From positions 1 to 28,436 of IMG/VR virus record IMGVR_UViG_3300030329_004692: a stretch of 28,436 nucleotides of DNA; one strand, given 5' to 3'. Made by a program: the position numbers and the translations under genes. Below are positions 13,160 through 28,436 of this stretch, in pieces. This DNA comes from a virus. The notes beneath the pieces were generated by a model, which saw only the letters and a list, made by a program, of their open reading frames with translations, was not told the origin of the DNA and searched no databases. How positions within the stretch are numbered: the first letter of the stretch is position 1; every line of letters starts with the position of its first letter.

Positions 13160-15240
13160 AGATATTTCACTTTCTGCCGCTGTCGGCGGCGGCCCGTCGG
13201 GGTTGGCGTGGTCTGGTCCAGGGAAAGCCCGCAAATACTCGCGGCAACCGCCGCGCCAACCTGACAATCTAGCCAGTGGTTGTCCGGTCGTCCGGGGTTG
13301 ATTCGCCAGTCGTCCGTTGTGCCGTACGGCCCGCTGACTTCGACCCGCGTCTCCGCGGTCAAGTGGTCCGCGAATAGTCGGTGGGTGCGGTTGCCCTCCG
13401 GCGTGAAAAGTGCCAGCGCGCCCTTGTCACCGGCTGCCGTTGCCAGCCGCCGGACTAGGTACGACTTCCAGAAATTGACGTCCACCAACACGTGACGGAC
13501 TTCCCCGCGTTCCGGTCGCGGGCTGCGCCAGTGCGCCGCTTCCGCGGCGGTCCGCCGCGCCAACCGCGTGGGCAGGTCGCCCGGTTTGAACGTCCACGCC
13601 CGCATGGGTTTCCTACCGGGTCCGATATACCGGCCATGACTGGGCCAGAATTCCGGCCGCCCTGCGCAAAAATCATAGACCGTGTCACGCGACAACCCCC
13701 AAGCGGCATCGACCAGCCCGCGGTTGATCTGGTAGGCGCTCGACAATTCCCCGACCAGATCGACCAGCCCGGCCCGCAGCCGTCCTTCCAATTGCCGGCC
13801 CGGGTATTTCTTGGTTAACGTGTTTCGCAAGTTGGACAGGCTGAAATAATCGGCCCGCTGCCGCGGCCACGTCCCATAATCGACCGTGTGGCCGGTCATA
13901 TTTTCGCCCCACGCGGTGACCACGTAGAAAAGAACCTCTTTCTGAACGTCGATATAACAGGTGGTCGCCAGCGTCCCCGGCGGCACCGTGCCGCGTGCGT
14001 AGCTACCGACCTTGGCGGCGATCGCGGCCGGCCGCAGTTCGTCCGCGGCGTTGTCCCGGTCCGCCCCGCCCGGGTCGTTCTGCGCTTCGGCAAAGAACGC
14101 GGGCCGGTCCCGATAATACTTATTCATCGCGCTTTGCAGGGCGCTCAAGTCCCCTTCGTCGATCTGTTCCGGCCAAGCAACCTCTGCGCCCCGGTCCATG
14201 GCCTTACGGTGTTTCCTGTAGAACGCCTTAGCCTTCTTACCCGTGCCGCCCGCGATTAGGTCTTCGTGCCGTAGCTGGGCGTATTCGTCCCATTTGTCCG
14301 TGTCGGCAGGCATGGCATAGACCAGCGGCGCGCGGATGCCGCGCCATTCGGGGTTCTTGGTTGGGTCTAGCATCCTGTCCGCCATGTCGTCCGGCTGCAC
14401 AACTGTGCACGGCATAACGGCGGCTATTTTTTTTCCCGGTCCTGGTAGATACAAAATCTCGCTTTGCAGGATCCGTTCCCGTTCGTCGCACTGTTGCGGG
14501 GACGATGCCGACCGGCGCGTCTGCGGGTCGTCGATCAGCGCGAAACTGGGCCGCGTGACTTCCCCGTCTTGCGTTGCTAGATTCATGCCACGCACCGCGC
14601 CCAACAACCCGGCGGACTCCAGGCAGCCGCCAGAACACGGGCTGCCCGGTATCGACGGGAAAACAATTCGTTCCGATTCCCAGCGGATGTCGGTCGGTTT
14701 CCCTTCGCAGCGTTGCCCGCGTGCCCGTTGCGTGATGTTCTCTAGCTTCCGGATCGGGAAAACCGCTTCGGGAAAATCGGCCGCCAGCTTGGCGTTGTGG
14801 CGTAGTTCCATTTTCGCGGACTCGATCCGTTTACGTGCGTGCTGCTGGGTGGCGGCGATCAACGCGACGTAATCATGCCAGCCCCAGAGCGCGACCAGTA
14901 GCGCGGCACACTCACAGATGGTCGTTTTCCCGGACCCACGCGGCAAGGCAAACGCCAGCAGCATTCCATCCTGTGCCGCGGTCTGGATCGACTCAATCAC
15001 CCGGACGTGATCCCGCGAAAACGGCAGCGGGAACCGCCGCGGAAAATAGATTTTTAGCGCCCGCTGCAAATCCTTTTCGCACTGGGCCCGGCGGCGTTTA
15101 TTCTTTACCGGCGGAATGGGGCCGATTTCGTTTCCGGCTTCGGTTAGCGCGGCGTCACGGGCCCGCCACGCCGCTTGGCGCTTAGCCCGCTTGGCCTTCT
15201 TTTCTTCCAGTGTGTCGGGGTTAGCCGGGGCGGGCGTCAT
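13156..15240 (-). CDS. Terminase large subunit (GpA type)
   Basis: The 694-residue protein is the packaging ATPase and nuclease. A basic N-terminal stretch is followed by the ATPase with Walker A LPRGSGKTT (about 99-107) and Walker B FALIDD (233-238). The C-terminal half holds the nuclease-type fold, with CYIDVQKEVLFYVV and DYGTW near 440-470 and further acidic residues towards the end. Overall it fits the lambda gpA/GpA family in length (lambda A has 641). ATGA overlaps exist at both ends, linking it to the methyltransferase and the zinc-finger gene. A separate small subunit is not recognised. Confidence 0.92.
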   Translation of the reverse strand: MTPAPANPDTLEEKKAKRAKRQAAWRARDAALTEAGNEIGPIPPVKNKRRRAQCEKDLQRALKIYFPRRFPLPFSRDHVRVIESIQTAAQDGMLLAFALPRGSGKTTICECAALLVALWGWHDYVALIAATQQHARKRIESAKMELRHNAKLAADFPEAVFPIRKLENITQRARGQRCEGKPTDIRWESERIVFPSIPGSPCSGGCLESAGLLGAVRGMNLATQDGEVTRPSFALIDDPQTRRSASSPQQCDERERILQSEILYLPGPGKKIAAVMPCTVVQPDDMADRMLDPTKNPEWRGIRAPLVYAMPADTDKWDEYAQLRHEDLIAGGTGKKAKAFYRKHRKAMDRGAEVAWPEQIDEGDLSALQSAMNKYYRDRPAFFAEAQNDPGGADRDNAADELRPAAIAAKVGSYARGTVPPGTLATTCYIDVQKEVLFYVVTAWGENMTGHTVDYGTWPRQRADYFSLSNLRNTLTKKYPGRQLEGRLRAGLVDLVGELSSAYQINRGLVDAAWGLSRDTVYDFCAGRPEFWPSHGRYIGPGRKPMRAWTFKPGDLPTRLARRTAAEAAHWRSPRPERGEVRHVLVDVNFWKSYLVRRLATAAGDKGALALFTPEGNRTHRLFADHLTAETRVEVSGPYGTTDDWRINPGRPDNHWLDCQVGAAVAASICGLSLDQTTPTPTGRRRQRQKVKYL

Positions 15241-15968
15241 GAAAATAGCACCCCTTGCCGCAACCGCTCCGCGGCCGTTTCGCAGTGTCGTTCGCTAACG
15301 TCGATTCCCACGGCCCCGATACCCAGATCGGCCGCCGCGCGTAACGTCGCGCCCGCACCGCAACAGGGGTCCAGTACACGGCCGCCGACCGGCGCCACAA
15401 CTTCCAGAATTTCCGACATTAGTTTTAGCGGTTTCATTGTCGGATGCAGGGAGTTGTCGTCCCGTTTGTGTTGTATTACGTTCCCCTTGCTGCGGTTGTA
15501 CACTTCCAGCGTGCCGCGGGAACTCACCAGCGCTAGTTCGTGCTGCGACCGAAAACCGTTCCCCAGCCCGGCTGAAATTTTATCCCAGACCAACATTCCA
15601 GAAACACGCAAGTTGCACGACTCGACAGCGCCGACAAGGTTGGGCCATTGTCGCCAGTCGATAAAGGATACAAACGCCCCGCCGATTTCTAACAGTGGGA
15701 CACACTCCAGACACAGTTCGCGCATAAACCAGACAAAACCGGTCGTTGTCATCTGGTCGTTCTCGATCGGGTTCTTGTTGAACCGCGACCCGGTCCCCTT
15801 CCAGCCGCCCGCCGTTTGTTTGCCGGCGTCGGTCCGCGCCCCGGACGCGTACGGCGGGTCAGTGACGACAGCGTGGAACGGTCCAGGGATGACGCCCGCC
15901 CGCAGTAGTTGCAAGCAGTCGCCGTGATAGATTTCTATTCCGCCGTGGCTGTAGTACGGCTTCGTCAT
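15237..15968 (-). CDS. DNA methyltransferase (N6-adenine or N4-cytosine, beta class)
   Basis: With the ATG at 15968 (overlapping the upstream TGA as ATGA) the protein has 243 residues. The catalytic motif TDPPY (Asp37-Tyr40) comes first. The target recognition part follows, then HPTMKP (175-180) and the AdoMet-binding motif VLDPCCGAGATL (198-209). This order defines beta-class amino-methyltransferases, which methylate adenine N6 or cytosine N4. No restriction partner is adjacent, so it is probably an orphan phage enzyme that protects phage DNA or marks it for packaging. Its coupling to the terminase gene favours a late role. The longer upstream in-frame extension overlaps the neighbouring gene and has no domain sequence. 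Confidence 0.88.
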   Translation of the reverse strand: MTKPYYSHGGIEIYHGDCLQLLRAGVIPGPFHAVVTDPPYASGARTDAGKQTAGGWKGTGSRFNKNPIENDQMTTTGFVWFMRELCLECVPLLEIGGAFVSFIDWRQWPNLVGAVESCNLRVSGMLVWDKISAGLGNGFRSQHELALVSSRGTLEVYNRSKGNVIQHKRDDNSLHPTMKPLKLMSEILEVVAPVGGRVLDPCCGAGATLRAAADLGIGAVGIDVSERHCETAAERLRQGVLFS

Positions 15969-16423
15969 TCGAGAAAACGCAAGGTGTTTTGCGTGTCCGT
16001 ATCGGTCGCGGCCGGCGGCGCGACTTGCCGCGTTAACAGTGCGTGTGCCGCGTAGCCCGACAGACCGCCGCCGCCAGCCAGCGCCAGCGCCGCCGCCACT
16101 AGCCAACCGCCGCCCGCTTTCGACGCCGGCGGCTGGTAGTGGTGGTGCGTCGTCGTCGTCGGGCTGTTGTCCTGGTAGTGGATCACGTCGTCATCTTGGG
16201 GCGGCGTGAAGTGGTTGAAATGCTCAGCCAGTTGCGCGTTGCCCATCGCTTCCGCCCGTTTGTGGTTCCGCTCTTGTGTCCGCATCCCCGCCAGATACGA
16301 CAGCACCGCCAGCGGAGAACGTGCCGCACCACTGGCGCCAGCGTCGTTGCCACCGTCCGGGGTCGCCCCGTTCCGCGGCGTACGCTTGCCGCTGTTCGAT
16401 CCAGGGAAATTCTGGTCGGTCAT
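15965..16423 (-). CDS. Membrane-anchored small protein of unknown function
   Basis: The 152-residue protein has one hydrophobic segment, about residues 104-129 (GGGWLVAAALALAGGGGLSGYAA). The N-terminal 100 residues are hydrophilic, with an acidic and His-rich stretch (DDDVIHYQDNSPTTTTHHHYQPP). Topology is probably N-terminus inside. It precedes the methyltransferase in the first third of the late operon. Function is unknown. A holin, a virion membrane factor or a superinfection factor are all possible, and none is supported by a motif. Confidence 0.6.
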   Translation of the reverse strand: MTDQNFPGSNSGKRTPRNGATPDGGNDAGASGAARSPLAVLSYLAGMRTQERNHKRAEAMGNAQLAEHFNHFTPPQDDDVIHYQDNSPTTTTHHHYQPPASKAGGGWLVAAALALAGGGGLSGYAAHALLTRQVAPPAATDTDTQNTLRFLE

Positions 16424-20359: not shown

Positions 20360-21349
20360 TTAGTTTTCGGGTTCCGGATTTTCCCACACTGGCGGGTCCG
20401 TTTGGCCGTCCTGCGCCCACGGGGGTAACTCCCAGATTCCCGGGTCGAGGTATCCGGGCCAGTGGTCGCGGATCCGGCATTCCTGTAGCTGGATCATCAA
20501 CCGCTTAATTTCGCGCTGCCCCTGCCCCAGGGACTGCAAGGACAGTTCCGCGGCGGCGACCCCGTGCGGCGGTTCCGACTCCACGGCGACAATCGCGAAC
20601 CGTCGACAGTCCAGCCGGCACCGCTGCGCCGCTTCCAGGTAATGCGCTGCCTGTCTGTAGTATCCAAAGTTCGCCAACGACTTGGCAAAGTCGATCGGGT
20701 CGGCGCTGCGGGTCGTCTTCAGATCGACCACGCGTTCCCCACGCTGGACGAAGTCTAGACGCGCTTTGCACCAGATCCCCGTGGTAACGTCTTGCCAAAC
20801 GCAAGTTAGCTCTGACACCCCGGACCCCGTCGCCAGAAATTGTTCGGCCCGCGGACTGGTCCGCAAACTGTTAACAATCGCCAACATGCGGTAATACTCT
20901 TGCGCGGTAATCACTTCCTTTTCCGCGTGTTTCGCTTTGAAGCGGGCCAACACGGCGCGCCCCTCGTTCGTGGCGGCCGGGTTGGCCGGTTTGCGGCCCG
21001 TCTTCGTGCGGACCTTGTCGTACAGGTCGCCCGGCGGGTAAATGTAACGCCCGGCCACTGCGCCCGCTTCCAGGATCCCGGTGTGGCATAGCGTCCCGAA
21101 ACGCATGGCCGGCGTGGGGTCGGTCGCGCCCGCCAATAGATGGGCGTGATAATGGGCCGGACTCCGCGCCAAGAACTTTAGGCTGGACGCGTTGACCAGC
21201 GGCCAGCCGTCGGGATCAACCAGGGACTGGTACTGCTCAAATGTCAGGTCTTCGTGGATCCCGGCGGTGGGGACGTTGTTGTCCACGTAGGCGGATTTGA
21301 TATCCCGCGACGTCCGGACGCCGTGGTGCTCATACTCGCTGTAAGTCAT
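20360..21349 (-). CDS. RecE/YqaJ-type exonuclease (PD-(D/E)XK)
   Basis: The 329-residue protein matches the C-terminal nuclease of exodeoxyribonuclease VIII (DUF3799 type). It has MRFGTLCHTGILE with His89, SELTCVWQD with Glu180, the catalytic set CKARLDF (Asp199) and VVDLKTT (Asp209, Lys211), and FGYYRQAAHYLEA with the Q-x3-Y signature. It would resect double-stranded ends 5' to 3' for phage recombination. GGAGG about 9 bases before the ATG gives a strong start, inside the previous gene's last codons. A RecT-type annealing partner is not found in the window. The neighbour downstream may play that part, but nothing in its sequence shows it. Confidence 0.85.
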   Translation of the reverse strand: MTYSEYEHHGVRTSRDIKSAYVDNNVPTAGIHEDLTFEQYQSLVDPDGWPLVNASSLKFLARSPAHYHAHLLAGATDPTPAMRFGTLCHTGILEAGAVAGRYIYPPGDLYDKVRTKTGRKPANPAATNEGRAVLARFKAKHAEKEVITAQEYYRMLAIVNSLRTSPRAEQFLATGSGVSELTCVWQDVTTGIWCKARLDFVQRGERVVDLKTTRSADPIDFAKSLANFGYYRQAAHYLEAAQRCRLDCRRFAIVAVESEPPHGVAAAELSLQSLGQGQREIKRLMIQLQECRIRDHWPGYLDPGIWELPPWAQDGQTDPPVWENPEPEN

Positions 21350-21695
21350 TGCCGCGCGCCTCCGTGCGTCGCTGTCTTCGTGGTGTTTCGGTTCCCCCAG
21401 CCATGGCGACCCGCAGTAAAAACACGTCGACTTCCGCCGGCCGGTAGAACCGCGAACGGCCCAACTTGAAACTGCCCTCTAATTTGATGTATTGCGTTTT
21501 GCCGTCGGCACCGCGTACGGGCTTGCCGGTGTTGCGCCAGCGGCAAAGCGTGCCGCGGCAGGGCCCGCGCGGTTTGCCGTCCCGGTCGCGTCCCCAGACG
21601 AAGGGCAACATATGGTGATTTAGAAAGTAGTCGCCGATTTCCTTTTCTCCCAGCGCCGGCCGTTCGTTTTGCGGGTCGTGTCTGGTCACTTGCAT
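21330..21695 (-). CDS. DUF1580-like DNA-binding protein (excisionase/regulator type)
   Basis: The 121-residue protein is the first gene of the early operon, with a purine-rich GGGGGCGGAA just before the ATG. The core LCRWRNTGKPVRGADGKTQYIKLEGSFKLGRSRFYRPAEVDVFLLRV has the form of a MerR/Xis-like winged helix: a helix ending in RW, a Gly wing, a second wing around KLEG...GRSRF, then a helix. DUF1580 proteins of planctomycetes share this layout. A role in excision or in early control (Cro/Xis) is likely by position and fold. Which one is open. Confidence 0.6.
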   Translation of the reverse strand: MQVTRHDPQNERPALGEKEIGDYFLNHHMLPFVWGRDRDGKPRGPCRGTLCRWRNTGKPVRGADGKTQYIKLEGSFKLGRSRFYRPAEVDVFLLRVAMAGGTETPRRQRRTEARGNDLQRV

Positions 21696-22076: not shown

Positions 22077-22349
22077 GTGTCGAAAGCAAAACAGTTTACA
22101 ACCCCCTTTAACGCGGCCGATTTGCGACGGTTCGAACAGCGGCTGGAACGGGTAACGCGGCGGCTGGCCGATATCCGCCGGCAAGTGGAAGAGGGCGACC
22201 TGGAACCGCTCTATCTATTCAATTCGCCTAGCTTCGCACTCGGTGTCAGCAACTGCGAACGGTTCAGCGTGGCGGCCGAACTGAGTCTGGACGCGTCCCA
22301 GCGCGGGGAACCCTACACGGAGAAAACCAGCAAAGCGGATCTAGACTAA
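22077..22349 (+). CDS. Small helical plus-strand protein
   Basis: The 90-residue protein starts with GTG at 22077, read divergently from the early operon. Residues 14-45 form a charged coiled-coil-like helix (LRRFEQRLERVTRRLADIRRQVEEGDLE), followed by a short beta or loop part with NSPSFALGVSNCERFSVAAEL. No helix-turn-helix or other motif is visible. In this position a repressor would be expected, but I cannot support one. The start lacks a strong binding site. It is a plausible lysogeny-side gene of unknown function. Confidence 0.5.
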   Translation: MSKAKQFTTPFNAADLRRFEQRLERVTRRLADIRRQVEEGDLEPLYLFNSPSFALGVSNCERFSVAAELSLDASQRGEPYTEKTSKADLD

Positions 22350-24163: not shown

Positions 24164-24190
24164 ATTGTGTTGTACTAGGTACAACACAAT
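24164..24190. repeat. Perfect inverted repeat, candidate integrase arm site (left)
   Basis: Two 11-bp arms ATTGTGTTGTA and TACAACACAAT enclose CTAGG. The same arms recur at 24456-24489 on the other side of the tRNA fragment. Placement between the integrase start and the att core fits arm-type binding sites. It could also be an operator for the integrase gene. Confidence 0.55.
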
Positions 24191-24274
24191 TGCCACCGTT
24201 TGACGTGGGCCAGATCTTAGCGGGCCGGGCGGCCGCGCGCCAATACCACTGGAAAACAAGGGGTTTGCCGCCAG

Positions 24275-24332
24275 TGCGGATGAAAGGATTCGAACCTTCA
24301 CTCCCTTAACGGGAACTGGGTCCTGAAACCAG
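24275..24332 (-). other. 3' half of a tRNA-Leu(CAG) gene, probable attP core
   Basis: Read on the minus strand, 24332-24275 holds an anticodon arm CTGGTTTCAGGACCCAG with anticodon CAG (24325-24323), a long variable arm with CCC/GGG pairing (24315-24301), a TpsiC arm with GGTTCGAATCC (within 24299-24283), and a 3' acceptor strand ending CATCCGCA (24282-24275). This is class II tRNA-Leu structure. The 5' half is missing: upstream sequence has no D-loop pattern and pairs with the acceptor strand at only four of seven positions. Phages that integrate in a tRNA gene carry just such a 3' part as attP core. CCA is not encoded. Confidence 0.75.
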
Positions 24333-24414
24333 ACCGCGCGGACCGCGTAGAAGCGGACCAGACGCCGCAAACCACTATAAAACAAGGCTAAAACCGCGGC
24401 GGCGCCCGTGTCCG

Positions 24415-24444
24415 AATGTTGCGCAATGTTGCGCTGTGTTGCGC
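24415..24444. repeat. Three 10-bp tandem units AATGTTGCGC
   Basis: AATGTTGCGC occurs at 24415-24424 and 24425-24434, followed by TGTGTTGCGC at 24435-24444. Two related units lie in the early control region (21884-21903). The shared motif near attP and near the early promoters suggests one protein binding at both places, such as an excisionase, integrase or repressor. Confidence 0.55.
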
Positions 24445-24455
24445 CGCGTTTCGTC

Positions 24456-24489
24456 ATTGTGTTGTCAGCGGCACTTAGTACAACACAAT
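24456..24489. repeat. Inverted repeat, candidate integrase arm site (right)
   Basis: Arms ATTGTGTTGT (24456-24465) and ACAACACAAT (24480-24489) enclose 14 bases. They are the same sequences as the arms at 24164-24190, so the att core is bracketed by two matching inverted repeats at about 85 and 125 bases distance. Confidence 0.55.
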
Positions 24490-24626
24490 AGAAACAGACA
24501 GCGGGGACCGTCGACCGAACGGCCACGCAACGCAACGACAACGGCACGTATGTACTGACAGACAAGCGCCAACCGCAACCGCAACGCAACGCGCACGCAA
24601 CGCGGGGGGCGTTTTTGGCGGCGGGC

Positions 24627-24635
24627 TGGTATAAT
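24627..24635 (+). promoter_or_regulatory. Extended -10 promoter
   Basis: TGGTATAAT holds a perfect sigma-70 -10 hexamer (24630-24635) with the extended TG motif. No good -35 box is present at 16-18 bases. It faces a terminator 80 bases downstream. Confidence 0.6.
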
Positions 24636-24641
24636 GTCGGG

Positions 24642-24721
24642 CGTCTCTGAAAGACACCCTTCTTTTGTCGCTTGGGGAAGGGTCGCGAACGTCCGCCGGT
24701 CACAGCTGGCGGGCGTTTTTT
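24642..24721 (+). ncRNA. Candidate small RNA of about 80 nt
   Basis: Between the extended -10 promoter and a rho-independent terminator lies about 80 bases without a start codon and binding site. Three stems can be drawn: GTCT/AGAC (from 24643), a 7-bp stem ACCCTTC/GAAGGGT (24656-24662 with 24677-24683), and the terminator stem. The loop of the second stem is pyrimidine-rich then GG-rich. No known RNA family is recognised. It lies between the att region and the hairpin-rich region; a regulatory role in lysogeny is only a guess. Confidence 0.5.
24690..24721 (+). terminator. Rho-independent terminator after small RNA
   Basis: CGTCCGCC (24690-24697) pairs with GGCGGGCG (24708-24715), with one G-T pair, and is followed by six T (24716-24721). 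AA before and TT after extend the stem by two pairs. Confidence 0.75.
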
Positions 24722-24817
24722 ATTGTCCACGTTCGCGAATACGGCGGGCGCCGTCGTTTGCGCGGGGCGCGGCCCCGGTTATAGATAATCGCCCGGCCAG
24801 TTTCCAGGCTACCGGGC

Positions 24818-25160
24818 CGGCCAGCGCGACGCGGCGCGACTATGACAAATAGCGTTGTCAGAATGTTAGAACAATTAGTTAGAAGTGCGCCACGCCGCGC
24901 GGAGTGTTCGACATAATGCCGAACGTTCGGTAGGTGCTCCATCGTTCCACGCGATATGTGGAACAGTTGCCGCGGTCTGATGTAACACCTAGAACGCGCG
25001 CCGCTGCGGTGTCAGCTGTTACACGCGGTTGTATATGTAACGATGTAACGCGCGACCTGGAACACTTGCGGGCCGTGCGATCGTTCGACACGGCCAGCAG
25101 CGGCGCGACGCGGCGCGACTGTGACAAAGTTGTCGGAATTTGTCCGAACAATTTGTCCGC
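24818..25160. repeat. Pair of imperfect ~70-bp direct repeats
   Basis: Copy one (about 24818-24885) and copy two (about 25091-25160) share an exact 18-bp block GCGCGACGCGGCGCGACT (24824-24841; 25103-25120). After it come TGACAAA, GTTGTC, and GAACAATT in the same order with small insertions. Copies are about 275 bases apart. They may be old duplications of a control element. Confidence 0.5.
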
Positions 25161-25303
25161 GCCATTTGTTCGAATTGCGCGGGGCCGCGCTGGAATAATT
25201 CCCCGCAATTATTCCCACCCCGCCGCCGCCGCGTTATTCCGCGCAACGGTGGGGCAACATTCGCGAATGTTCGCGAACGGCCGCAGGCTATGGGCTGGGC
25301 GAA

Positions 25304-25371
25304 GGTGGGCAAAGGTGGGGAAACGGTGCCGAAACGGTGCCGAAACGGTGGGCAAAAGTGGGCAAGTAGTG
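25304..25371. repeat. Helically phased GGTG array
   Basis: Seven GGTG or AGTG cores start at 25304, 25314, 25325, 25336, 25347, 25357 and 25368, spaced 10, 11, 11, 11, 10 and 11 bp. The middle three share the unit GAAACGGTGCC or close variants. An A-rich step precedes each core, so A-tracts are also phased, which would curve the DNA. Confidence 0.6.
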
Positions 25372-25670
25372 GCGGCGAAAGAAGGCAAGTGGTGGAACTT
25401 GCCTACTTTTTCGACCGACCGACCGAGCGAGCAAACAACCGACAGTTCCGACAGTTTCCAACCGAGAAAACCGAGATCTCTGTTAATCCGCGTAAATCTC
25501 GGTTTCCGTAAGTCGTTGCCCGCGTGGCGGTTGGAACAGAGAAAACCGAGATCTCTACCGACAGTTTGCCGACAGTAAACTGTCGGTTTCCCAGAATCCG
25601 ACCGAACAAACCGCAAAACAACCGACCAGACGCAAGGCTATGGGCTGGGCGTCCTCTGGGATTCGCTAGC

Positions 25671-25717
25671 GTTTTCTTTTCTTTTGTCTTCTTTTTCCTT
25701 CTTTTTCCTTTTCTCTA
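25671..25717 (+). other. Polypyrimidine tract before the plus-strand genes
   Basis: Nearly 47 bases of T and C with one G follow CTAGC. Runs of T up to five occur. It directly precedes the leader of the first plus-strand gene. It could end transcription arriving from the hairpin-rich region or form an unusual DNA structure. A TACAAT at 25741-25746 could be a -10 box for the downstream genes, though the -35 is poor. Confidence 0.4.
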
Positions 25718-25777
25718 CTGTTCATGGTATTTGTACACGATACAATAAAGGGCATGGCAGTTACAAACAACACAACG

Positions 25778-25810
25778 AAAGGGCAAGACATGACAACGAC
25801 AGCAACAGAC
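25778..25810 (+). repeat. Start-associated 33-bp repeat, copy 1
   Basis: This 33-bp sequence spans the ribosome binding site (AAAGGG), the ATG and the first six following codons (MTTTATD) of the 66-residue gene. The identical 33 bases occur at 26050-26082 at the start of the next gene. A shortened copy of its first part (AAAGGGC followed by ATGGCAG) lies at 25747-25760. Confidence 0.85.
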
Positions 25811-25990
25811 AGATACCAGCCGAGAATCAGCAAGGACGCCGACGGCAGTTTTTACGCCCTAATCGTTAGGGTTGATTATGACGGCTGCGAAGAAGTCATC
25901 TACGGCTACGACGGCCGCCACTTCAAGACACTGAAAGCCGCCACAAAATCGACAACTAATTACATTACAAAACACAACCTGAACGACTGA
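25790..25990 (+). CDS. Small acidic/aromatic protein of unknown function
   Basis: The 66-residue protein starts at ATG 25790, chosen because AAAGGG lies 7 bases ahead and because the same start context is used by the next gene. In-frame earlier starts at 25724 and 25754 have no good binding site. The sequence DGSFYALIVRVDYDGCEEVIYGYDGRHFKTLKAATKSTTNYI (in parts) suggests a single small beta-beta-alpha unit. No family is recognised. A hairpin terminator follows the gene, so it may be expressed more strongly than the genes after it. Confidence 0.6.
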   Translation: MTTTATDRYQPRISKDADGSFYALIVRVDYDGCEEVIYGYDGRHFKTLKAATKSTTNYITKHNLND

Positions 25991-26001
25991 CCCCACCCCA
26001 C

Positions 26002-26035
26002 GCCGCCCGGGCCAGCCCCGGGCGGCTGTTTCTTT
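26002..26035 (+). terminator. Terminator/attenuator between two plus-strand genes
   Basis: A perfect 10-bp stem GCCGCCCGGG/CCCGGGCGGC (26002-26011 with 26017-26026) with a 5-base loop is followed by TGTTTCTTT. It would stop much of the transcription between the two genes that share the 33-bp start repeat. Confidence 0.7.
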
Positions 26036-26049
26036 CCACCACCAACAAC

Positions 26050-26082
26050 AAAGGGCAAGACATGACAACGACAGCAACAGAC
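26050..26082 (+). repeat. Start-associated 33-bp repeat, copy 2
   Basis: It is identical over 33 bases to 25778-25810 and again covers the binding site, ATG and first codons. The proteins then diverge completely. This resembles start-associated sequences described in some mycobacteriophages. Confidence 0.85.
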
Positions 26083-26646
26083 CGCACGGGCGATTTATGC
26101 GACGCGGAAACGGGCGAATTGATCGGCCCCGCGACATTCCAACAAATCACCGACAGCCGCTGGGCGGCAACCACGGACGGCGGGCCGGGCGTGATCGACG
26201 TTGACGGCCGCCGCTGCTATGTGGAGGGCGACGACGACCCCGCCTTGGAAATATGCATGTCCCAGGAATGGGTCAGGGAATGGCTGGAAGGACACGCCGA
26301 TTTAACCGGCATCGATGACGTCGACAAGGACTGGGCCGCGGACGAAGCAACGAACGACATTGGCGACCGGCTGACGGCCGCCGGGTTCGCTGTCGGGCCC
26401 GCGAAGTCCGGCCGATATTCGTTTTCCCAGTGGAACGGCTGCCGCTTGTTTTCGTACCGCTCTGGACCCGTTGCCACGTTCGCCACGCTGGCCGAATGGG
26501 AACAAGTCGCCATAGACAAGACAGTTGCCGAAGCGGCCGCCGCCGCGCTGGCCGATATCGTGGCCGAAGTCCAACACGCGCCCGGCTGTTCCTGCGGCGC
26601 GCCGTGGTGTTCGGAACATATCGCCGCCATGCGGGGGGCCGAATAA
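26062..26646 (+). CDS. Acidic protein of unknown function
   Basis: The 194-residue protein starts in the second 33-bp repeat. It is acidic, with an N-terminal part containing CDAETGELIGPATF and DVDGRRCYVEGDDDPALEI, a middle VREWLEGHADLTGIDDVDKDWAADEATNDI, and a SGRYSFSQWNGCRLFSYRSG strand region. An Ala-rich helix precedes a C-terminal CSCGAPWCSEH, which could bind a metal. No known domain is recognised. Its stop overlaps the Prim-Pol start as TAATG, so both are probably co-translated. Some DNA-mimic likeness is only compositional. Confidence 0.65.
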   Translation: MTTTATDRTGDLCDAETGELIGPATFQQITDSRWAATTDGGPGVIDVDGRRCYVEGDDDPALEICMSQEWVREWLEGHADLTGIDDVDKDWAADEATNDIGDRLTAAGFAVGPAKSGRYSFSQWNGCRLFSYRSGPVATFATLAEWEQVAIDKTVAEAAAAALADIVAEVQHAPGCSCGAPWCSEHIAAMRGAE

Positions 26647-27149
26647 TGGACCGCTGGAAACTTGCGCACCACTTGTACCGACTGGGTTTCTCCGTCATTC
26701 CGCTGCGGGCGGACAAGCGGCCCGCCGTCCGCTGGAAGCGTTACCAGCACGAACACGCGACGCCGGCCGACCTGGACCACTGGTTCGGCCTTGAAGACTT
26801 CCGGCCCGGTATCGTCTGCGGTGCCGTGTCCGGTCTGGTCGTGGTGGATTGTGACGACGCCGCCACGGCCGCCAGTTTCGCCGCTAGTGCGTCCAGCAGT
26901 CCGTTGCGGCAACGTACCCGCCGCGGCGTCCACCACGTCTATAGACACCCACACGGCGACCAGCCACGCAACCAGCAACGGGTTGCTGGCCAGCCAATCG
27001 ACGTTCGGGCAAACGGCGGCTATGTCGTAGCCTACCCCGACGCGGCAACCTGGACACCGGAATTGATCGCAACTGCCCCGGACTTTGTCCCGCTGTTGAT
27101 CGAACCGCCGGAAGTCGTCGACCCGTTCCCATTAGAGGTGATCGCATGA
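26646..27149 (+). CDS. Stand-alone Prim-Pol domain protein
   Basis: The 167-residue protein matches the N-terminal bifunctional primase-polymerase (AEP) domain. It has LGFSVIPLRADKRPAVRWKRYQ, VSGLVVVDCD with the metal-binding Asp68 and Asp70, RGVHHVYRHP with His97, and PIDVRANGGYVVAYP, the nucleotide-binding part with Asp119. Prim-Pol domains synthesise primers and can extend DNA. Most phage versions are fused to a helicase; here the protein ends after the domain. An ATGA overlap links it to the ribbon-helix-helix gene. It lies away from the early replication operon, on the opposite strand. Alternative: a remnant of a longer protein. Confidence 0.85.
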   Translation: MDRWKLAHHLYRLGFSVIPLRADKRPAVRWKRYQHEHATPADLDHWFGLEDFRPGIVCGAVSGLVVVDCDDAATAASFAASASSSPLRQRTRRGVHHVYRHPHGDQPRNQQRVAGQPIDVRANGGYVVAYPDAATWTPELIATAPDFVPLLIEPPEVVDPFPLEVIA

Positions 27150-27343
27150 CCGACCCAAAACAGGAAACACGCGGCCGCCCGGCAACGCATCCGGAAGGAA
27201 ACACGCGTAGCATATCTATAACGGTGCCGGCGTCCCAACTGGACAAACTGGCGCAACTGGCCGCGGCGGATAAGGTGTCGCGGTCCCAGCTGATTACGCG
27301 TGCCATCCGCGACTATGTCGCGTCCCGCCAGCGGGCCCTGTAG
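27146..27343 (+). CDS. Ribbon-helix-helix DNA-binding protein
   Basis: The 65-residue protein has a GRPATHPEGN start, a beta strand RSISITVPAS, helix QLDKLAQLAAADK, the turn VSRSQ, and helix LITRAIRDYVASRQ, which is the CopG/Arc pattern. The strand would lie in the major groove of DNA as a dimer. It is a candidate regulator of this plus-strand operon. Its last 31 bases overlap the end of the convergent HNH gene. Confidence 0.75.
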   Translation: MTDPKQETRGRPATHPEGNTRSISITVPASQLDKLAQLAAADKVSRSQLITRAIRDYVASRQRAL

Positions 27344-27654
27344 CGGTCCGACCGGCTGCGCCGCCGCCGCTGGTGTGCCTTCCGCCGCCGTCGTTTCCTT
27401 GCGTCCGCGGTCCGCACCACGTCGCGGCAAAGTTGCAAGAAGTCCTCCGCGTCCATCGCACCCTTGGCCCGGTTCGCTTCAGCGGTGACTAGCTGCACGT
27501 TGTCCAGCCGGTGACCGTCACGGCCGGTCCGGGACAGCGGGACCACGTGGTCCAGCGACACGGTTTGCGGCGTTAGTTTCCGATTCGTCAACGCGCACCG
27601 GTAACGCTGTTTGCGGATCAGCTGTTCCAGGGCGGCGCGGTTAACTTTACTCAC
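27313..27654 (-). CDS. HNH endonuclease
   Basis: With GTG at 27654, overlapping the upstream TGA (GTGA), the product has 113 residues. The core RYRCALTNRKLTPQTVSLDHVVPLSRTG with Asp35-His36, then LDNVQLVTAEANRAKGAMDAEDF (Asn52 and Asn61), matches a compact HNH domain. Only one N-terminal cysteine of the usual zinc set is present. The C-terminus is highly basic. Similar genes sit beside phage packaging or replication modules. An earlier in-frame start at 27879 lies inside the neighbouring gene and is unlikely. Confidence 0.8.
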   Translation of the reverse strand: MSKVNRAALEQLIRKQRYRCALTNRKLTPQTVSLDHVVPLSRTGRDGHRLDNVQLVTAEANRAKGAMDAEDFLQLCRDVVRTADARKRRRRKAHQRRRRSRSDRYRARWRDAT

Positions 27655-27920
27655 TGTCGCGGGTCCCCGCAGACGTTGGCGCGGCGGGTTTCCATTCGGG
27701 CCATGTTCGCGAATTTTCGCGACCAGTCGCCCGCGGTTGCCGTGGCTGCCGCGGCACCGCTTAGAACCCGGGACCACGCCCGCGGCCACGGGTCCCGCTG
27801 CCGTTCCGCCATGCGGGCCAACCGGTTGTTCCACGGGTCCGAATGCCGTGACAAACGGCGGGCCGCAGTCCGTTGACACCGTTGCCAGGCTGCTCGGTAG
27901 TCGTCGCCGTCGGATGTCAT
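27651..27920 (-). CDS. Small basic Trp-rich protein
   Basis: The 89-residue protein starts at ATG 27920, overlapping the metalloprotease stop as ATGA. Its sequence has W at regular points (AAWQRC, DPWNNRLARMAERQRDPWPRAWSRVL, DWSRKFANMAR), with alternating basic and aromatic residues. No domain is recognised. It is coupled to the HNH gene on one side and the metalloprotease on the other, so it may be their partner. Its basic nature suggests nucleic acid contact. Confidence 0.6.
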   Translation of the reverse strand: MTSDGDDYRAAWQRCQRTAARRLSRHSDPWNNRLARMAERQRDPWPRAWSRVLSGAAAATATAGDWSRKFANMARMETRRANVCGDPRQ

Positions 27921-28339
27921 TTGCGCCAGCCTAGCTGCAATAGTGCCCGCGTAATTTCGTCCGCTACCGATAGCGTCCAGTCGCTGTCGGGGTCCAGGTC
28001 CGGCCGCGCTAGGCGTAGTGTCTGCTGGAGCGTTGCCCGCATTACGGCACCGCCGGCCCGCGGCCCGGGGTCGCGACGGCTACGACACCCGGCCAGCCGC
28101 AACAAAACCGCCGCCGCGCTAGACCACGTCTGGATCCAGGATTCCCCCGTTTCCCAGTCCAGGGCGTGGGCTATTTCGTGCAGCGTTGTTTCTTCCCGGC
28201 GTTCCGGCGTTAGTCCACGCCGGACCAGAATTTCCCGCCGCGGATCGATCACGCACAACCCATCCACGGCGCGACCGTCGCACGTTAGCCGCCGCGGTTC
28301 GCTGTAGTTCCAATAGGATCCGGCCAAGTGCAGACGCAT
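27917..28339 (-). CDS. HExxH metalloprotease-like protein
   Basis: The 140-residue protein has TTLHEIAHALDW, a zinc metallopeptidase motif (His54, Glu55, His58, with Asp61 as a possible third ligand). A strand-rich N-terminus (GLCVIDPRREILVRRGLTPERREE) and a helical C-terminus (VADEITRALLQLGWR) frame it. This is close in layout to small ImmA/IrrE- or SprT-like phage proteins. ImmA-type proteases cut repressors, so a role in lysogeny control is possible but not shown. The ATG at 28339 has no obvious binding site. Confidence 0.65.
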   Translation of the reverse strand: MRLHLAGSYWNYSEPRRLTCDGRAVDGLCVIDPRREILVRRGLTPERREETTLHEIAHALDWETGESWIQTWSSAAAVLLRLAGCRSRRDPGPRAGGAVMRATLQQTLRLARPDLDPDSDWTLSVADEITRALLQLGWRK

Positions 28340-28436
28340 AACAACAACACCGACGGCGGGGCCGCATCGCGTATTAACCGCCGCCGCCGGTGACAGGGTC
28401 CCCCGTTGGGTGGGTGTGTTGGTTCGAAATCGTGCA
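28340..28436. other. Short unassigned end of window
   Basis: No gene can be supported in these 97 bases. They may hold the leader of the metalloprotease gene or the end of another minus-strand gene beyond the window. Confidence 0.3.

Follow-up and report, generated by a model that had tools for sequence, protein, structure and literature searches.

The region 24164–24489 is very probably, judging from sequence comparison, the attP with which a temperate tailed phage inserts itself into the tRNA-Leu(CAG) gene of its host. As an attP, it is of a known and ordinary type; the new part is an inverted pair of repeats on each side, putative as arm-type sites. The site is set apart as a variant because it fits known attP types and yet is flanked by inverted pairs on both sides. 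The window, i.e., the whole stretch of DNA that was analyzed, is the entire IMG/VR virus record IMGVR_UViG_3300030329_004692 (28,436 bp; classed as linear). It encodes a tailed phage gene set on the minus strand (terminase, portal, head protease, major head protein and tape measure), and this structural run is followed by a tyrosine integrase on the same strand, approximately 1.6 kb without an assignable gene and an early block on the plus strand (Table 1). An N6/N4 DNA methylase gene (15237–16106) lies within the structural run; no counterpart of it was found in the related phage G001, introduced below. Beside the integrase, a plus-strand gene of 90 amino acids (22077–22349) runs opposite to its neighbours; it is 58% conserved in G001 and its function is unassigned. 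The gene at 21330–21695, also kept in G001, is a candidate excisionase or recombination directionality factor without a domain match, and its AlphaFold model was too poor for a structure search.

Table 1. Features of the putative attP and its surroundings in the window. L005 is the attP-region locus of G001; L018 and L019 are loci used for tRNA comparison.
Feature	Position	Strand	Basis and remarks
Tyrosine integrase (int), 401 aa	22918–24123	−	PF00589, PHROG, catalytic residues
Integrase-proximal inverted pair, ATTGTGTTGTAC tag GTACAACACAAT	24164–24190	.	41 bp upstream of the int start codon; counterpart at L005:2233–2265; candidate arm-type pair and/or int operator
17-nt direct repeat, copy 1, ACCACTGGAAAACAAGG	24245–24261	+	Repeat search; motif present once in G001; may be a second kind of binding site
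tRNA-Leu(CAG) 3' part (anticodon stem-loop, variable arm, T arm, 3' acceptor strand, discriminator A)	24275–24332	−	Candidate attP common core
Anticodon stem-loop, CTGGT-TTCAGGA-CCCAG	24316–24332	−	Predicted crossover region; aligned with the tRNA-Leu of L018 and L019
17-nt direct repeat, copy 2, ACCACTATAAAACAAGG	24371–24387	+	
Distal inverted pair, ATTGTGTTGTCA (10-nt gap) GTACAACACAAT	24456–24489	.	
TAGAAACAGA, directly after the distal pair	24489–24498		Same order in G001
Phage early block (small ORF, 26062–26646, Prim-Pol primase, ribbon-helix-helix protein)	25724–27343	+	

The candidate core of the site is TTCAGGACCCAGTTCCCGTTAAGGGAGTGAAGGTTCGAATCCTTTCATCCGCA, a phage-borne tRNA-Leu(CAG) remnant from the 3' side of the gene. 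Read on the minus strand, the anticodon stem-loop is followed by the variable arm, a GAAGG/CCTTT T arm with GTTCGAATC and then CATCCGCA, so that the fragment runs from the anticodon stem as far as the discriminator base and lacks the 5' half. It aligns with annotated tRNA-Leu genes of other phages at 79.6% identity over 54 nt (E = 8e-4; 2.3 Gb searched). Placed behind a generic tRNA-Leu 5' half, it is called tRNA-Leu(cag) by ARAGORN, as were none of 200 shuffled fragments; because this 5' half was picked to pair with the acceptor strand of the fragment, the call is a consistency check and not proof of the target. RNA folding of the fragment gave no signal, as expected of half a tRNA. The integrase lies downstream, with 151 bp between the 3' end of the fragment and its start, which bears out the sequence-only reading of a 3' tRNA half upstream of an integrase. 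The anticodon stem carries one mismatch (T31/C39), which suggests that the bases 5' of the anticodon loop are phage-derived and that the host has G31. No match to the 53-nt fragment, exact or degenerate, was found in the genomes searched (one each from 84,980 species), and a BLAST search of plasmids with the attP region gave no match either. The host may be a planctomycete, a hunch prompted by integrase N-termini.

The inverted repeats reported in the sequence-only reading are present on either side of this fragment. The proximal one has perfect 12-bp arms with a gap of 3 nt and is the sole perfect 12-bp inverted repeat with a gap of at most 20 nt in the window. The distal one has perfect 10-bp arms with a gap of 14 nt; taken as 12-mers, its left half is imperfect (2 mismatches) and the gap is 10 nt. 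Both share the arm ATTGTGTTGT, of which the 28.4 kb contain four exact copies, all at this site, and when the window was shuffled 300 times with dinucleotides preserved, no shuffle contained two inverted repeats with a common 10-mer arm. At these four places, three match the half-site GTAnnACACAAT with at most one mismatch, as does nothing elsewhere in the window, and the fourth has two mismatches. The midpoint between the inverted pairs (24324.75) falls less than 1 bp from the center of the anticodon loop (24324), a coincidence spotted after the fact. A 17-nt direct repeat, absent from the sequence-only reading, also stands on either side of the tRNA fragment, and with it the 15-bp motif CACTRKAAAACAAGG.

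A single relative allows these elements to be compared. G001 (IMGVR_UViG_3300030329_004907; 29,919 bp) is syntenic with nearly all genes of the window. Upstream of its integrase, a distal inverted pair, ATTGTGTGTTAC-N10-GTAACACACAAT (L005:1958–1991), and a proximal one, ATTTTGTGATAC-N9-GTAACACACAAA (approximately 16 bp from the int start codon), are made up of the only four GTAnnACACAAT half-sites that occur in its 29.9 kb at one mismatch or less. The presence in G001 of two inverted pairs, built from almost the same half-site and placed alike, settles that the repeats belong together and strengthens the case that those of the window are part of the attP. The gaps inside the pairs differ, being 3 and 10 nt in the window and 10 and 9 nt in G001. 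The 15-bp motif has one good copy in G001 (L005:2058), and TAGAAACAGA lies next to the distal pair in both phages, G001 having CACTGTAAAACAAGG as well. No tRNA fragment was found in the attP region of G001, and the midpoint of its inverted pairs falls at no evident core. Across 2.9 million viral contigs, scanned with the window's own record excluded, G001 is the only match to the full palindrome pattern. The pattern is drawn from two phages (n = 2). L003 was set aside as a further relative for being too short and L004 for lacking an integrase match.

The two phages also differ in arrangement. Seen from int, G001 carries the 15-bp motif and TAGAAACAGA the other way round. They are turned together with the early block, which lies at 28045–29915 of G001:C1 and whose direction with respect to the integrase and structural genes differs between the phages. 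Proteins of shared genes are approximately 34–78% identical, except for that of the left-end gene (1–192), which is 98% identical to its G001 counterpart. The stretch without an assignable gene (24500–25720) contains the short repeats GTGCCGAAACGGTG, TTCGCGAATGTTCGCGAACG and AGGCAAGTGG...CTTGCCTACTTTTT, some of which are found again in G001 between the integrase and the structural genes; it is a candidate replication origin near the primase. Within it, a TATAAT-like box is followed by approximately 90 nt that close with a strong terminator-like hairpin and a T run (24630–24725). This segment resembles a small RNA gene; its best Rfam match, below threshold, is a plasmid copy-control antisense RNA, and a similar hairpin with a T run lies near L005:3906–3941 in G001.

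The integrase belongs to the tyrosine family (Pfam PF00589, E = 1.1e-20; PHROG class integrase) and looks intact, with R239, H350-x-x-R353, H376 and Y385 conserved in the alignment with the G001 integrase. Identity between the two proteins is approximately 43% overall and unevenly spread: 70% in the putative arm-binding region (residues 1–70), 30% in the core-binding region (71–205) and 43% in the catalytic region (206–401). This pattern is consistent with common arm sites and a different target. In lambda-type integrases, the N-terminal domain binds arm-type sites (PMC2951348), and such a division of labour fits here because the N-terminus and the flanking sites are conserved while the core-binding region and the cores have diverged. 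Queries of the viral contigs with the integrase alone, with an alignment of the two integrases and with a degenerate N-terminal motif returned only G001 as a relative. The structure model of the integrase (pLDDT 37.8) was unusable for a search and lends no support to an arm-binding fold.

Repeated sites thus stand on both sides of the core, are confined to the int-attP region and are conserved along with the integrase N-terminus. We tentatively propose, as a reading that is quite possible, that the N-terminal domain binds inverted-pair arms on both sides, with two protomers head to head on each pair, and that the proximal pair doubles as an operator of int. In the main reading of the site as an attP, the catalytic and core-binding domains would exchange strands within the anticodon loop (24321–24327), and at the int-side junction the 3' part brought by the phage would make the host tRNA whole again. 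Meanwhile, the N-terminal domain would hold the GTAnnACACAAT half-sites, arranged as inverted pairs approximately 148 bp to each side of the crossover, and the 15-bp CACTRKAAAACAAGG repeats would form a second class of site. Occupancy of the proximal pair should also repress int, since this pair sits just upstream of it. Several observations weigh against this picture: the host gene was not matched in the genomes searched, the gaps inside the pairs vary, the 15-bp motif and TAGAAACAGA are turned round in G001, which has one good copy of the motif and no evident core at its midpoint, and the pattern comes from two phages.

A serious competitor, which we consider plausible but on the doubtful side, keeps the attP and assigns the palindromes to a dimeric regulator of int (a ribbon-helix-helix protein, an excisionase or a repressor), leaving the 15-bp repeats as the true arms. 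A symmetric dimer would go well with palindromes that have 12-bp arms. In both phages, the proximal pair closely precedes int (41 bp and approximately 16 bp from the start codon, respectively), and both encode a ribbon-helix-helix protein. Known arm sites, moreover, are direct repeats around the core, like the 15-bp motif in the window, and the distal pair coincides in part with a weak promoter-like match, although such matches occur at the rate of chance. Yet the gap from half to half varies (3, 9, 10 and 10 nt), which is awkward for a rigid dimer, and the pairs stand on both sides of the core and nowhere else, with no early promoter included. In addition, with one good copy of the 15-bp motif, G001 could not have arms of this kind on both sides.

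That the site is an uninterrupted attP, rather than an attL or attR, follows from the phage DNA on both flanks, with the integrase and structural genes to the left and the early genes to the right, as judged from synteny with G001. The sequence-only reading of a complete attP is therefore supported. Where it had allowed for host genes to the right of position 24490, the genes are those of a phage: the homologues of 26062–26646, the Prim-Pol primase and the ribbon-helix-helix gene adjoin the integrase in G001. It had further suggested a circular or unintegrated form. A non-integrated form is implied by the unbroken attP, the molecule being unsplit at this site, whereas for circularity the record, which is classed as linear, showed no terminal repeat. 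It is very unlikely that the fragment is instead the attR of an integrated prophage, or the relic of an old event, on a contig that joins the phage to its host or to another element. A tRNA part limited to the 3' side would be expected in an attR as well, the host tRNA gene was not found in the genomes searched, and the far-right genes (27313–28435) are without a homologue in G001. However, an attR would have host DNA to the left, beyond the 3' end of the tRNA, where the integrase and the full structural module lie instead; the early genes on the right have their homologues next to int in G001, and the repeats are symmetric around the fragment. Finally, it is extremely improbable that the phage encodes a whole tRNA here, with the fragment joined to a 5' half of unusual form, since the 123-nt path that Rfam weakly threads using GCGGTTTTAGC at 24397 (18.1 bits against a gathering threshold of 29; E = 1.8) is far under threshold, lacks a D arm and has poor acceptor pairing, and was rejected as chance, while ARAGORN finds no complete tRNA, with both halves, in this stretch or anywhere in the window.

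Among known systems, the layout can be likened to that of the Cluster J mycobacteriophages (Omega, BAKA), whose attB lies in a tRNA-Leu gene, its left end falling within the anticodon loop, and whose core is flanked by direct-repeat pairs of putative arm sites (approximately 10 bp; PMC3706429). The type of target and the putative arm pairs around the core are shared; however, both pairs of the window are inverted, and its attP lies 5' of int instead of 3'. Inverted arm-like sites also occur in Cluster J, at the int start, where they were proposed as regulators of int (PMC3706429). Cluster K1 (CrimD) has two pairs of 11-bp putative arm sites, P1/P2 being inverted relative to P3/P4, and targets the tmRNA gene (PMC3203893). 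The window shares with it two flanking pairs and a core 5' of int, but its inversion is within each pair rather than between pairs, and its target is tRNA-Leu. In the mycobacteriophages compared here, documented arm-type pairs are mostly direct repeats, a point against the proposed inverted arms. As in phage lambda, a tyrosine integrase is combined with a core and candidate arm sites on both sides, while the inverted pairs and the second, 15-bp repeat set the window apart. Its attP measures 326 bp; the lengths listed in PMC4111918 range from 220 to 450 bp. In the KplE1 IntS/argW system, the tRNA gene sits immediately before int on the same strand, so that attL covers part of the int promoter region and self-repression by Int becomes possible; autoregulation is often predicted for integrases in this position (PMC2951348). 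The int gene of the window is likewise downstream of and parallel to its tRNA part, and its autoregulation is a prediction. In arm layout, the window resembles G001, with two inverted GTAnnACACAAT pairs upstream of int, but G001 differs from the window in having no tRNA fragment between the pairs, an inverted early block and a core-binding region of 30% identity.

The study of Cluster J left open whether tyrosine integrases use inverted arm-type sites (PMC3706429). Since two divergent phages have inverted pairs on either side of the entire attP, a single protein and two DNA fragments would suffice to put this question to a direct test. If binding by the N-terminal domain proves true, the two phages would represent an integrase family whose arms are laid out symmetrically rather than as direct repeats, and such integrases would keep their arm specificity while switching integration target. 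The phage pair would then be a natural example in which arm recognition is conserved although the integration target has changed.
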